Origin: Candidatus Scalindua sp. SCAELEC01
GTDB lineage: Bacteria > Planctomycetota > Brocadiia > Brocadiales > Scalinduaceae
Direction of reading: 5' to 3'
Assembly: GCA_004282745.1 (NCBI GenBank)
Contig: SHMT01000023.1
Span: 1 to 64,000, forward strand
Length of the DNA: 64,000 nucleotides
The position numbers and the translations under genes were made by a program. The notes under the pieces were generated by a model. It was not told the DNA's origin and made no database searches. It worked only from the letters and a program-made list of their open reading frames with translations. This document shows positions 3,881 to 60,077 of this stretch, piece after piece. Position 1 is the first letter of the stretch. Each line of letters opens with the position of its first letter.

Positions 3881-4018
3881 TAGTGCGTGAACGAAAACCC
3901 AGTGTTTGAACCAAAACTGCCCATCCGCTTCGTTGCTGGAGTAATTACTGAATCCTCACGTGTGTTTCGGTTCCAAATCAGCGTGTCTACTGTCTGGGCC
4001 GTTTTCGTTCAAATACTG
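3881..4018. repeat. family B element, divergent copy B1
   Basis: Starts with TAGTGCGTGAACGAAAACCC and ends with GTTTTCGTTCAAATACT. The interior (CTGCCCATCCGCTTCGTTGC) aligns with the CTACCCATCTACTGCGTTGC of the intact copies. The same variant terminus occurs inverted at 60039-60077, so this may be a distinct subfamily. It occupies most of the gap between two divergent genes. Confidence 0.7.
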
Positions 4019-4094
4019 GTTCTCTGTTCATGGATAAATTGTGACTATTTTATACGATAACCTGTGAATCTTTCAATTGCTTTTTGTCTCTTTT

Positions 4095-12221: not shown

Positions 12222-12278
12222 AGTATTTAATTTCTTCGAGTACTCTTTTTTTCTTCCCGTAACAATTTTCTTTAATTA

Positions 12279-12424
12279 GTGTTTGAACGAAAACTACCCA
12301 TCTACTACGTTGCTGCAACAATTTCGAAATCCTCAAGTACAATTGTACGTTCCGGTTACGAAATTGTTACGCGCCTTGTACCTGGGCACTTTTCATTCAA
12401 ACACAGGGTTTTCGTTCAGACACT
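12279..12424 (+). repeat. family B element, intact copy B2 inside the RND operon
   Basis: 146 bp, starting GTGTTTGAACGAAAAC and ending TTTTCGTTCAGACACT. It is flanked by the direct repeat AATTA (12274-12278 and 12425-12429), the mark of a 4-5-bp target duplication. The internal arms ACAATTTCG and CGAAATTGT surround a GTACAATTGTAC palindrome. It separates the pump gene from the outer-membrane factor gene. Confidence 0.9.
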
Positions 12425-12466
12425 AATTAGCTTGTTAGCCTTCCGCAGATTTTTTAAGAACTTGTT

Positions 12467-17414: not shown

Positions 17415-17801
17415 ACAGACGTAATAGCTTTTTTACCAAAAGGCCAGTAGCGTCCGGTTAGGTTTTTGCGTATTTAATTTATTGTACAAAAACTTGTCAT
17501 TCCCGTAAGTTTCCCGCTTTAAGCGTGCAGGAACAAGCTTTAGCAGGAATCTATGATGAAACGAGTCTCTGGCTCTGGATACCCGATAAAGGTGTTCGGG
17601 TATGACGAAAGCCGCCTAAGCAAAAACCTAACCGGACAACGATGCCATAAGGCAAAAATAATTAATTGATAAAAAATTATTTTTTTGAGATAAATCGATG
17701 ATATTCAAATTATCACTACAAGTCAACTTTATTTTTAGAAAAGTTTCAAAACGAATCGAAAATGCCAGGAATTTGGCAAATACTGTTTAATAGTGAAACT
17801 T
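17415..17801. other. gap between exported protein and glycogen phosphorylase
   Basis: Holds the family A copy A2 (17445-17644). The remaining roughly 150 bases before the phosphorylase stop are AT-rich, and I see no gene or clear terminator in them. Confidence 0.5.
17445..17644 (-). repeat. family A mobile element, copy A2 (inverted)
   Basis: A 200-bp copy in the opposite orientation to A1, A3 and A4, with an interior enlarged by about 34 bp. It is flanked by CCAAAAGGC (17436-17444) and CCATAAGGC (17645-17653), a 9-bp target duplication with one mismatch. The right terminus has decayed relative to the left. Confidence 0.85.
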
Positions 17802-22057: not shown

Positions 22058-22834
22058 ATGAAACTGGTGATTATTATAACCGTTGTTGTACTACTTTTTA
22101 GTGTTCTGTTTTGTTGTCTCCCCTTTATGAATGGTATCGGTATGAATGCGATTGTTTTTGCAAAAAAAAGTGTTGAGCAGTTAGAGGAAGAGTATGTACT
22201 TAGGAGAAAGAAGATGGTGAAGTCACAGATAGCGGCCCGAGGTGTGAAAGATAAAGAGGTGCTTGAGGCGATGGAAACAGTACCTCGCCATCTGTTCGTT
22301 CCTGAAGAGTTAAGAGGTTTTAGTTATCGAGATGAACCATTTTCCATTGGGTTAGGGCAAACGATATCTCAACCTTATATCGTAGCACTGATGACGGAGA
22401 TGCTGGAGCTCAATAGTGATGATATTGTACTTGAGATTGGGACTGGTTCCGGGTATCAGGCGGCAGTCTTAGCAACAATTGTACAGAAGGTGTATACAAT
22501 CGAAATAATCGAGGAGTTAGGAATTCAGGCAACGGAGCGGTTAAAGCGCCTTGGATATAGTAATGTGGATGTGAAGATAGCGGATGGTTCATTGGGGTGG
22601 CCAGATAAGTCACCTTTCGATGCCATCATCGTAACGGCAGCAGCAGAAAAAATCCCAAGTGCCTTGATACACCAGTTAAAACGTGGTGGAAGATTGGTAA
22701 TTCCGGTAGATAATGCCTATCTTGGCCAAGATTTGTTAATCGTAGAAAAAGACGATGAAGGAGAGACGGATATAAAAAAAACGATCCCGGTGCGTTTCGT
22801 CCCTCTTGTGAAAGAGAAAGATGGTGTTAAATAG
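22058..22834 (+). CDS. pcm: protein-L-isoaspartate O-methyltransferase, exported form
   Basis: 258 residues. The PCMT domain repairs isoaspartyl residues by SAM-dependent methylation; motif I is IVLEIGTGSGYQAAVL (123-138), preceded by the family block VPRHLFVPEELRGFSYRDEP and LGQTISQPYIVALM. Residues 1-35 are an added signal peptide ending in VFA, so the enzyme should act outside the cytoplasm. A GGGGG about ten bases upstream supports the start. The TAG stop lies at the edge of a family B-like element, so the last codons may have been altered by insertion. Confidence 0.93.
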   Translation: MKLVIIITVVVLLFSVLFCCLPFMNGIGMNAIVFAKKSVEQLEEEYVLRRKKMVKSQIAARGVKDKEVLEAMETVPRHLFVPEELRGFSYRDEPFSIGLGQTISQPYIVALMTEMLELNSDDIVLEIGTGSGYQAAVLATIVQKVYTIEIIEELGIQATERLKRLGYSNVDVKIADGSLGWPDKSPFDAIIVTAAAEKIPSALIHQLKRGGRLVIPVDNAYLGQDLLIVEKDDEGETDIKKTIPVRFVPLVKEKDGVK

Positions 22835-22958
22835 TGGTTGAGCTAAAACTATCCATCTAATTCGTTGCCATACTAATGACGTAATCTCCACGAACATTAA
22901 TATGATCGGGTTTTCAAATCAGCACACCATGTATATTTGCAAGTTTAGTTCAACCACT
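22834..22958. repeat. family B-like element, divergent copy B6
   Basis: Ends GTGGTTGAGCTAAAACT and AGTTTAGTTCAACCACT are inverted repeats, and the left interior CTATCCATCTAATTCGTTGC aligns with the intact copies. The internal palindrome is largely lost, and no target duplication is seen. Confidence 0.65.
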
Positions 22959-29632: not shown

Positions 29633-30153
29633 GAAAATAAAAGAATAAATGGAGAAATGCTAAATTATCAAACAGTGAAATTGATTTCTAACAAATAGAT
29701 AAAACTTGAAAAGGTTGAAATTTGTAACATATTTTCAAGGAAATGCATCATTGTCCGGTTAGGCTTTTGCTTAGGTGGCTTTCGTTATACCCGAACGGCT
29801 TTATCGGGTATCCAGAGACTCGTTTCATCATAGATTCCCGCTAAAAACATGCGGGAATGACAAGTTTTGGGGCAAACAAATTAAATACGCAAAAACCTAA
29901 CCGGACGTTACTGAAGGAAATGGAAAAAAGCAGTGAAAAGTTTTCTCTCTCCCCAGTGTAGCGGTACAGTCTACTCGGTGATCTGCACGGAACACGGCAA
30001 CATCATAAACCCACTTCAATACTCCCAAGAGTAGTAAGATCAATCAAATTATCAGGGTTATTGCATAACTGGTTATCTCATTAATACTTACCAAGTCGGT
30101 TATAAACGTCGTTTCTGTGAGTCACCTAGAGTAGGCACCTGATTGCCACCATC
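29633..30153. other. gap holding family A copy A3
   Basis: Between two convergent genes. Besides the element at 29746-29913 I see no gene, no tRNA and no convincing terminator hairpin with a T-run. Confidence 0.5.
29746..29913 (+). repeat. family A mobile element, copy A3
   Basis: 168 bp, flanked by the exact 9-bp direct repeat AAGGAAATG (29737-29745 and 29914-29922). The right terminus is CGCAAAAACCTAACCGGACG; the left is more diverged (TGTCCGGTTAGGCTTTTGC). Same orientation as A1 and A4. Confidence 0.9.
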
Positions 30154-37824: not shown

Positions 37825-37997
37825 GTGTTTGAACGAAAACTCCCAAGCTTGCATACACTTGGAAGGCAAGCCATCTACTGCGTTGCCGCAATAATTTCGC
37901 AATCCTCAAGAACAATTGTACGTTCCGGTTACGAAATTATTACGCGCCTTGTGCCTAGGCACTTTTCATTCAAACACAGGGTTTTCGTTCAGACACT
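37825..37997 (+). repeat. family B element, copy B3 with insertion
   Basis: 173 bp, flanked by AAATA direct repeats (37820-37824 and 37998-38002). Compared with the 146-bp copies it carries about 27 extra bases near the left end, including AAGCTTGCATACACTTGG. Internal arms ATAATTTCG and CGAAATTAT pair perfectly. Confidence 0.9.
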
Positions 37998-40287: not shown

Positions 40288-40496
40288 TTCAATTTCCACC
40301 TCTTGATCTATGAGGTACAAAAAGAGTCCTTGAATGGAAACCCTTTGGTTGAGCAATAACTGCGAAGATACAAGGTTCGATGGTTTTCTTCTGGGAGCAA
40401 ATTCATAAAAGGGTACTTAAGTACTTGATTATCATGGTGTTTGTACAGAAAGTTAGTAGTGAAGTCGTTTTCATTTTACCATATACTAAAAACATT

Positions 40497-48129: not shown

Positions 48130-48568
48130 TTTCTCTTCCGTTAATTAATCCTGCACAATCTCATCGTTTGGTTTCAGTACAATTCAGTAGCGTCCGGTTA
48201 GGTTTTTGCGTAGGTGGTTTTTGTCATACCCGAACGCTTTTATCGGGTATCCAGATACTCGTTTCATCCTAGATTCCCGCTAAAAACATGCAGGAATGAC
48301 TGCATTTGGGCAATAAGTTACTCACGCAAAAACCTAACCGGACGCTACTGAGTACAATTATAAAATGTAATCAAAAATTGTCCAATTATTAATTCCTCTT
48401 TATGAAACGATATACTAATTTGATTTTTCAAGAAAAGAAGAAAATATATATTTTTTGCTCGCCTGTTATTGTATAATGCTTTTTTGCCGTTAACCATGCT
48501 ACAATCTAAAATAGTGTTTCACGGTTATTCTAATGTAAACTGACTTTTGTTTTATTAAGGTAAGAAGT
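48130..48568. other. divergent intergenic region with family A copy A4
   Basis: Between the phosphohexomutase and the first glycosyltransferase. Holds the element at 48185-48350 and a TATAAT at 48471-48476 without a convincing -35. Confidence 0.5.
48185..48350 (+). repeat. family A mobile element, best copy A4
   Basis: 166 bp with perfect 26-bp terminal inverted repeats (48185-48210 and 48325-48350, beginning CAGTAGCGTCCGGTTAGG). Flanked by exact 9-bp direct repeats AGTACAATT (48176-48184 and 48351-48359), a target duplication. No coding capacity. Confidence 0.95.
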
Positions 48569-54663: not shown

Positions 54664-54682
54664 ATTTGTGTGCCATTAACTA

Positions 54683-54828
54683 GTGTTTAAACGAAAACTA
54701 CCCATCTACTGCGTTGCTGCAATAATTTCGCAATCCTCAAGTACAATTGTACGTTCCGGTTACGAAATTATTACGCGCCTTGTACCTAGGCACTTCTCAT
54801 TCAAACACAGGGTTTTCGTTCAGACACT
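54683..54828 (+). repeat. family B element, copy B4
   Basis: 146 bp, flanked by AACTA (54678-54682) and AATTA (54829-54833), one mismatch. Internal arms AATAATTTCG and CGAAATTATT pair perfectly, with T-A at the position where B2 has C-G. Confidence 0.9.
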
Positions 54829-55039
54829 AATTACCGGCCCTCAAAAAAAGGGATGTACTGGTGGAAACGGTATGAACATGATGAGGTAATGGGTGATTTC
54901 TTGTTGATACTCTATTCCTCCTAATCAAAAAAAAATCTGAAAATTAAAACATTATTTTATCTTGCGTTCATGATTGATGTGTGATAGGATGGTGTTTCAC
55001 TGGTTGTTATGTTGTTTTCTCTATAGTATATTTTATATA

Positions 55040-55477: not shown

Positions 55478-55623
55478 GTGTTTGAACGAAAACTACCCAT
55501 CTACTACGTTGCTGCAACAATTTCGAAATCCTCAAGTACAATTGTACGTTCCGGTTACGATATTGTTACGCGCCTTGTACCTGGGCACTTTTCATTCAAA
55601 CACAGGGTTTTCGTTCAGACACT
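55478..55623 (+). repeat. family B element, copy B5 upstream of an exported protein
   Basis: 146 bp, flanked by exact ATTTA direct repeats (55473-55477 and 55624-55628). Nearly identical to B2. Its right end lies 16 bases before the ATG of the next gene. One arm has a single mismatch (CGATATTGT). Confidence 0.92.
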
Positions 55624-57523: not shown

Positions 57524-58038
57524 CCGTATTTTTTACAAGATGCGTGGGTGGAGGAGGAAACCCTGCGAACAATTCTGAATTATGTTCTCACGATGTCTGT
57601 TCTTAGGGTTCAGGAAAGAATAACTTGTTGTTTTATCGCGCTCAGTTTTATGTCAGATTTGGTCGATCTGACCGACCAGGACCGCAGGTGTAGCCTAAGC
57701 TACAGCGAGGATGCTGCGAGTGAAGAGCGGCCGAAGGTGACCTGAAAATAAGATGCGAGAACAACAAGTTATTCTTTCCTGGGCCCTTAGTATGCGATGG
57801 TAAATTAGCCATTGAAGTACCTGTATCTTTCTGGTAGTATAAATGGCCTTCATTTGTTTGTGACTACTTACTTTGCAAGGTCTGTGAGAGTCTCTATGGT
57901 GTATAGGCAGCACTACTGGCTTACGTAGGAACGAGAGACACGCTTAACCTGGAACGTAATAATTTTTTAGATGCGAAGGGGAATATATTCTTTTTTGCTC
58001 CTCCCTTTCTTTAGTTTTAAAGCTTATCCACAACAATT
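57524..58038. other. region between FGE-like gene and hflK with family D element
   Basis: Contains the 189-bp element D3. Between 57791 and 58038 I see only a weak promoter candidate (TTGAAG at 57812, TAGTAT at 57835, 17-bp spacer). Confidence 0.45.
57602..57790. repeat. family D element, long copy D3
   Basis: 189 bp with terminal inverted repeats of about 30 bp (GGAAAGAATAACTTGTTGTT on the left, its complement on the right, with few mismatches). The interior has small palindromes such as GTAGCCTAAGCTAC. No coding capacity and no clear target duplication. Confidence 0.8.
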
Positions 58039-59037: not shown

Positions 59038-60035
59038 AACCACGCGCACAGATTTTGATAATAATTGCAATAGTAGTAGTGGTCGGAGCCATTATCATTG
59101 GTTCTAGCGCATTCTACGTAGTAGACGTAAAAACGCAGGCAGTCGTAACGCAGTTTGGTAAACCGGTGAGAACGGTAACAGAACCAGGGTTACAGGTAAA
59201 AACCCCATTCATCCAAATGGTGATATATTTTGAGAACAGGATTTTAGGCTGGGATGGAGAACCGAGTGATATTTTAACAAGGGATAAGGAAAACATTGGC
59301 ATTAATACGTGGGCGCGATGGAGAATTGTTGACCCCTTAAAATTTTATACATCTCTGGGGCGGGAAAGTAGTGGACAAGGTGTGCTGGATGAGGTCATTG
59401 GGGCAGCCGTGAAGAATGTTATAAGCACATATCCCCTGAACGAGATCCTCAGAGACACAAACCGAAAGCTTGTCTATACTACCGAGGAGTTAGAGGATGC
59501 AGAGAGGCAAAAGAAGATCCATATCGACAAGGGGAGAACGAATTTGGTAGAAACAATTCGGGATATGGCAAATAAGGGCTTAGCGGAAAGATACGGGTTG
59601 GAACTCCTGGATGTACGGATCAAGCACATCAACTATGTGGCGACTGTGATACCTAAAATATTCGATAGGATGCGTTCGGAAAGGATGAGGATAGCCAGCA
59701 AATACGAATCTGAGGGTAGGAGGGAAGAGGCGGAGATATTGGGTCAGATGAAGAGAGAGCTGGAGGGGATCGAATCTGAGGGGTACAAGGTTGCCATAGA
59801 AACCAGAGGTGTAGCTGATGCTGAAGCAATTAGGATTTATGCGAATGCATATAAAAAGGCACCTGAATTCTACACATTTACGAAGACCCTTGAGACCTAT
59901 GCGAAGACAATCAGCAATAAGACCCGTCTGATATTGAGTACTGATAGTGACTATTTTCAGTATCTGAATAGTTCGATGGGCAGAGAGAAAGATGAGAAGC
60001 CAGATGCACTACCTCAGCAAATAATTGAGGAATAG
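59034..60035 (+). CDS. hflC: HflC, modulator of FtsH protease
   Basis: 333 residues. N-terminal membrane segment at about 8-27, then AFYVVDVKTQAVVTQFGKPV, the SPFH core, RFRVVDPLKFY-type stretch (here RWRIVDPLKFYTSLG) and the helical RMRIASKYESEGRREEAEIL. It is the partner of HflK and translationally coupled to it. The gene pair stands apart from ftsH, which is not in the window. Confidence 0.93.
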   Translation: MKPRAQILIIIAIVVVVGAIIIGSSAFYVVDVKTQAVVTQFGKPVRTVTEPGLQVKTPFIQMVIYFENRILGWDGEPSDILTRDKENIGINTWARWRIVDPLKFYTSLGRESSGQGVLDEVIGAAVKNVISTYPLNEILRDTNRKLVYTTEELEDAERQKKIHIDKGRTNLVETIRDMANKGLAERYGLELLDVRIKHINYVATVIPKIFDRMRSERMRIASKYESEGRREEAEILGQMKRELEGIESEGYKVAIETRGVADAEAIRIYANAYKKAPEFYTFTKTLETYAKTISNKTRLILSTDSDYFQYLNSSMGREKDEKPDALPQQIIEE

Positions 60036-60038
60036 GGA

Positions 60039-60077
60039 GTTTTGGTTCAAACACTGGGTTTTTTCGTTCACGCACTA
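60039..60077 (-). repeat. family B terminus remnant (B1 subfamily)
   Basis: GTTTTGGTTCAAACACTGGG then TTCGTTCACGCACTA: the inverse complement of the left end of B1 (3881-3918) with one inserted base. The rest of the element is not recognisable. Confidence 0.6.

Follow-up and report, generated by a model that had tools for sequence, protein, structure and literature searches.

Where one copy of a palindrome in the anammox bacterium Candidatus Scalindua has C facing G across its arms, another has T facing A. The palindrome at 54683-54827 is the case in point, and it raises two questions. Is a folded DNA or RNA hairpin under selection here, for transposition or as a transcribed structure, as a sequence-only reading of this DNA supposed? 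If it is, does selection act on the insertion at this locus or on the element that spreads?

Four close copies and one change

The window (the whole stretch of 64,000 nucleotides analyzed here) holds four close copies of the palindrome, at 12279-12423, 37825-37996, 54683-54827, and 55478-55622, and several decayed copies besides. A search for the central GTACAATTGTAC with one mismatch allowed finds four instances in the window where 0.12 are expected. The reported copy, its parts, and its relatives are as follows, with the basis of each in brackets.

54677..54682, no strand: left target duplication TAACTA; the right one is TAATTA at 54828-54833, with one mismatch (sequence, family-wide test of target site duplications)
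54683..54827, + strand: reported MITE copy, 145 bp, GTG...CAC, T-A state (sequence, alignment, model match 54682-54829)
54723, + strand: reported pair, 5' base T, column 41 (sequence, alignment, column states)
54770, + strand: reported pair, 3' base A, column 88 (sequence, alignment, column states)
54737..54739, - strand: conserved internal loop, 3' side, TCA on plus and UGA on minus, columns 55-57 (2-5 changes per column, against a hairpin mean of 8.8 elsewhere)
54755..54756, - strand: conserved internal loop, 5' side, TC on plus and GA on minus, columns 73-74 (2-3 changes per column)
54741..54752, no strand: apex GTAC-AATT-GTAC, with a conserved stem and a tetraloop that is hypervariable in the family (sequence, per-column changes)
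12279..12423, + strand: copy in the C-G state; TAATTA duplicated exactly, 12273-12278 and 12424-12429 (sequence, alignment, model match)
37825..37996, + strand: copy in the T-A state, centre reading GAACAATTGTAC, 27-bp left-arm insert, TAAATA duplicated exactly (sequence, alignment, model match)
55478..55622, + strand: copy in the C-G state, one mismatched stem position, TATTTA duplicated exactly (sequence, alignment, model match)
3901..4032, + strand: diverged copy; another piece lies on the minus strand, 3881-3923 (model match 81 bits)
22833..22958, + strand: diverged copy (model match 67.5 bits)
40326..40480, - strand: strongly diverged copy (model match 37 bits)
60033..60077, + strand: right-end fragment (model match 21.6 bits, E 1e-4; end repeat)

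The change itself is as the sequence-only reading described it. The arms read ACAATTTCG and CGAAATTGT at 12279-12423, against ATAATTTCG and CGAAATTAT at both 37825-37996 and 54683-54827, and the pair that differs is C at 12319 with G at 12366 in the first copy, T at 54723 with A at 54770 in the reported one. The fourth close copy, 55478-55622, has C and G at the reported pair and, higher in the stem, a T.T mismatch (ACAATTTCG/CGATATTGT). What does not survive is the statement that all copies keep the central GTACAATTGTAC. It is exact in only three of the four, the copy at 37825 reading GAACAATTGTAC, and genome-wide the four bases of the apical loop change fastest of all: about 17 changes are inferred for each of these columns, the overall figure being about 9.

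How many events do these copies represent? Within the window the alignment links the reported change to other subfamily markers, and in a tree of the family the window's change falls on one branch, leading to 66 copies. The four copies by themselves therefore amount to a single event.

The left-arm insert of about 27 bp in the copy at 37825-37996 (CCCAAGCTTGCATACACTTGGAAGGCAAG) is present too in a copy elsewhere (L051). It looks like the mark of a shared sub-subfamily or of a recombinant. The window contains other repeats as well. A second palindromic family, with end GTCCGGTTAGGTTTTTGCGTA and arms about 110-145 bp apart, is found at 456-626, 17452-17637, 29753-29906, and 48184-48351 and looks like another MITE family. 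A third inverted repeat, at 57602-57790, has 31-bp arms (CTTAGGGTTCAGGAAAGAATAACTTGTTGTT) lying 127 bp apart.

A foldback MITE with ISNCY-type ends

The reported palindrome belongs to a foldback MITE of ISNCY type in Candidatus Scalindua, of which it is a single copy. The element is 145 bp long, non-coding and without a gene of its own, and it ends in the inverted repeats TAGTGTTTGAACGAAAAC and GTTTTCGTTCAGACACTA. It is flanked by 6-bp TANNTA sequences. Out of 99 copies, 75 have the same six bases on both sides, and 88 have matching bases at the variable NN, as opposed to 13.8 in shuffles. An 18-bp end, TAGTGTYTGAACGAAAAC, from which the family assignment is drawn, is common to the Scalindua MITE and to 1.89-kb elements of genomes taken, by kinship, to be Brocadiaceae, which encode a full ISNCY transposase (470 bits to NCBIfam NF033593, transpos_ISNCY_1). 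These autonomous elements duplicate TANNTA too (TATTTA in L117, TAAGTA in L129 and L132). The likeness stops there: the Brocadiaceae insertion sequences carry their transposase gene, whereas the Scalindua element is geneless, the hairpin in its interior is unrelated, and its right end is present a second time further in. An ISNCY transposase would thus move the MITE in trans, or would have done so in the past.

Is that transposase in the same genome? The Brocadiaceae protein finds no homologue there at E 0.001 in an assembly of 104 contigs, and the first stretches of the genome contain no autonomous parent with the same ends. Assemblies of this kind often lose multi-copy genes, so the absence is not decisive. 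Nor is a matching transposase in the same genome what defines a MITE; membership by the ends stands. A truncated ISNCY-type transposase gene does lie at the end of one of the genome's own contigs, C1, where the contig end cuts it (L166 10036-10281). Upstream of it, beside a TAGTTA site, is a different but related end, TAGTTTTTGTACGGAAAT.

There are hundreds of copies in the genome. The exact central palindrome GTACAATTGTAC occurs 138 times genome-wide and the element ends, with at most two mismatches, 481 times. In 731 kb of contigs the covariance model finds 94 copies or fragments; these contigs were picked for holding matches, so that only a rough figure for the whole genome can be drawn from them. 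The copies analyzed come from sampled stretches and are a subset of the full set. Among 59 Brocadiales genomes the model of the core matches solely in two Scalindua genomes. A 130-bp element in another Scalindua genome (L116 7840-7969) is without the extra terminal-repeat copy.

Several known elements invite comparison. Closest are 135-bp elements of Brocadiaceae (L119 1749-1884, L121 1797-1931, L123 2150-2284, L124 2142-2276), which share the ISNCY ends, flanks of TANNTA type, and a strong hairpin interior, though the hairpin is a different one (TGTCATTTCGA...GAGAAATCT...TCGAAATGACA) and lacks the GTAC apex. REPINs need RAYT (Y1-type) transposases, whereas the ends and the TANNTA duplication of the Scalindua MITE point to an ISNCY enzyme. 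REPINs are non-autonomous hairpin elements that replicate as a population within one genome (Bertels and Rainey 2011, PMC3116915), and in this the Scalindua MITE is like them. The Correia or NEMIS element of Neisseria is a MITE of about 150 bp with terminal repeats and a foldable transcript (PMC10969869); it resembles the Scalindua MITE in size class and in having terminal repeats but differs in its ends and its target. ERIC of the Enterobacteriaceae is a short, intergenic, imperfect palindrome with a similar apex (GGAGC-TTAC-loop-GTAA-GTGA), and membership in it was considered and rejected. The model matches the 127-bp ERIC exactly on the core but weakly (14.1 bits, E 0.27), there is no likeness beyond the apex, the host group is different, and the shared ISNCY ends are not found in ERIC. 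No Rfam family is matched by the Scalindua element, and the open-licence literature yielded no description of the family, nor of MITEs in anammox bacteria. The family thus appears to be undescribed, while MITEs with hairpins are already a known kind.

The fold and its covariation

From the outside in, the hairpin consists of end repeat, middle arm, central stem, internal loop, GTAC stem, and tetraloop; the reported pair, columns 41-88, belongs to the central stem. Two partners are open to the left end: the true right end and the second, inner end copy. In the window the right end of the reported copy can be seen as two tandem copies of the terminal repeat, inner and outer, at 54788-54827. The minus strand of two copies is predicted to form a single long hairpin with the inner end copy, at -54 and -56 kcal/mol (z about -6.3 to -7.0), where the plus strand of the same two reaches -40 and -47 kcal/mol. 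The minus strand is the better folder in 29 of 39 divergent copies, which share ancestry.

Rates of change are uneven along this structure. The tetraloop is the fastest part, at about 17 changes per column, and the five columns of the internal loop are among the slowest (3.0 vs 8.8 changes per column, p = 0.001, the columns having been chosen post hoc). The loop reads GA and UGA on the minus strand, where tandem G.A pairs are possible. On that strand, among 151 copies, G.A is kept in 141 and A.G in 146, and the neighboring purine-U in 142 (A-U in 114, G.U in 28).

Covariation in a large alignment is the test that the sequence-only reading had proposed for its hairpin, and the outcome is positive. 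A FastTree tree was made of 151 distinct copies, ancestors were assigned by parsimony, and 47 foldback pairs were scored against 300 simulations that kept the number of changes in each column and scattered them over the branches. Changes from one Watson-Crick pair to another on a single branch number 34, compared with 10.2 +- 3.1 expected, and none of the 300 simulations reaches 34. Columns 41-88 show six independent two-sided changes (TA>CG twice, CG>TA, TA>AT twice, TA>GC). Where the outer ends pair with each other, there is no excess (1 vs 3.9). Several of the compensatory events lie on short branches, with 3 to 8 changes in all; some lie on long ones, for which the reconstructed ancestors are uncertain.

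The excess is specific to the foldback register. Double hits number 60 in register and 27-44 when one side is slid by 1 to 8 columns; on branches with no more than 15 changes the figures are 29 in register and 4-18 slid. A second method agrees: 25 divergent copies give a covariation score of 0.162 vs 0.119 (0 of 500 shuffles), falling to 0.05-0.09 when slid. A test of all pairs in the manner of R-scape, about 10,000 of them, finds no single pair with E < 0.05. That test is the weaker one because subfamily history dominates its statistic. Even so, its best two pairs are both structural (E 0.68 and 5.1), with the reported pair ranking second, and the same two stand at about 0.003 and 0.02 when the test is confined to structural pairs. 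Over the evolution of the subfamilies both members of stem pairs have changed time and again, and they have done so in foldback register.

Might this be an artefact of subfamily history, in which blocks swapped between subfamilies carry both arms together? Subfamily markers do dominate the all-pairs statistic, and mosaic-looking copies exist (L031, L057), but block exchange should lift neighboring registers equally, and the short-branch figures just given make the idea very improbable.

Source elements, insertion sites, and copying errors

If each copy served its host as a hairpin, mutations in paired sites should be seen less often once a copy has settled. They are not. The 92 private mutations of 88 recent copies give rates of 0.0074 per site per copy in paired columns and 0.0076 in unpaired ones, and not one of the 92 is compensated. 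Copies, then, are not visibly kept paired after insertion. The idea of a hairpin under selection thus divides: covariation upholds it for the lineages of the element, and private mutations, which ignore pairing, go against it for single insertions.

I propose that selection on source elements keeps the fold, a reading I hold to be somewhat better than an even bet. Only elements able to fold would go on producing copies. Compensated stems would build up in the source lineages and be carried by the founders of subfamilies, and individual copies would decay regardless of pairing after insertion, as recent copies do. The fold would be needed for copying, and the acting form may be single-stranded or cruciform DNA during transposition, or the minus-strand RNA.

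The main rival requires no selection on the fold. In template switching between the arms during replication, or quasipalindrome correction, one arm is copied onto the other, a process known to produce one-step compensatory changes and to maintain hairpins (PMC8794818). It would fit the facts that the excess lies in double changes on the same branch, some of them on branches with three changes, rather than in separate steps of repair, and that paired columns are unprotected in recent copies. Several observations speak against it as the only cause. Mismatches are not restored above chance (21+37+43 observed vs about 28+22+52). Nearly every copy retains a mismatched and conserved internal loop near the apex. 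Of the asymmetric apical loops that are common (TTGA, ATTA, AAGG), none is ever found inverted, and the 92 private mutations include no double change, though only about 2 would be expected. Gene conversion as the only force keeping the arms alike, a possibility the sequence-only reading had itself raised, is disfavored, as is template switching in that role, which I regard as unlikely.

The other rival is that the element is transcribed and that its RNA hairpin acts where it has inserted, as a terminator, in mRNA stability or processing, or as a small RNA, with the host selecting for it. The placement of copies is suggestive: 147 of 158 lie outside ORFs of at least 90 codons (ORFs being called by length only), often near gene ends. 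The better folding of the minus strand points the same way, and ERIC and Correia are reported to affect mRNA via RNase E or RNase III (PMC10969869). In Correia or NEMIS RNA processing is reported at the level of the locus (PMC10969869), whereas the Scalindua MITE shows no constraint at that level. The minus strand shows an apparent excess of G.U over A.C in all copies (251 vs 119), but this is close to the neutral ratio given by private mutations (17 vs 9), and G.U is not visibly favored beyond that ratio on either strand. Orientation to neighboring genes is near random (46 vs 31, p = 0.11; 77 vs 53 downstream). Equal private rates and near-random orientation together argue against a host function of each copy, as does the lack of an Rfam match, and the G.U ratio gives no sign in its favor. 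Covarying pairs are what a structured RNA family would show, and DNA-level causes would account for them too. RNA function at individual loci was rejected on the private mutations, and a transcribed structure at work in each insertion is not supported; the explanation as a whole is improbable.

The apex prompts a wider speculation. On the minus strand it reads GGAGCGTAC-loop-GTACGTGAGG, and the same arrangement is found in an enterobacterial repeat in prophage contigs, a Yersinia phage, and the pyrH-frr gap of E. coli. That repeat (L205-L217) is about 120 bp long and occupies a median of 5 places per E. coli genome; the Rfam model of Xanthomonas sX9 matches it below threshold. Most of the enterobacterial apex sequences, which were chosen by the motif, score 23-29 bits with the covariance model (E about 1e-5 to 5e-4 in 89 kb). 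They came from pattern scans of a very large collection, and with so large a search space and motif-chosen sequences the match is not significant and homology is not claimed; the likeness is a lead only. The exact motif is present in 1 of 294 genomes of the phylum and in no plasmid, and a pattern known from other phyla has no match in viral contigs. The minus strand, with its covarying stems, nearly invariant tandem-GA internal loop, and GTAC apex, might be a structured nucleic acid required for propagation, with an apical unit common to unrelated enterobacterial palindromes and hence a host factor or mechanism shared by foldback MITEs, but I consider this a long shot.

Compensatory change is usually read as proving that an RNA is functional. 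In this case it is found in a mobile repeat whose single copies give no sign of being kept paired, so structure can be selected, or can arise through mutation, at the level of the element as it spreads. This calls for caution in the discovery of RNAs by covariation. Its copies run to hundreds and fall into clear subfamilies, and a candidate transposase family can be named; the Scalindua MITE thus offers a good test bed for the question of why bacterial MITEs are so often long palindromes.
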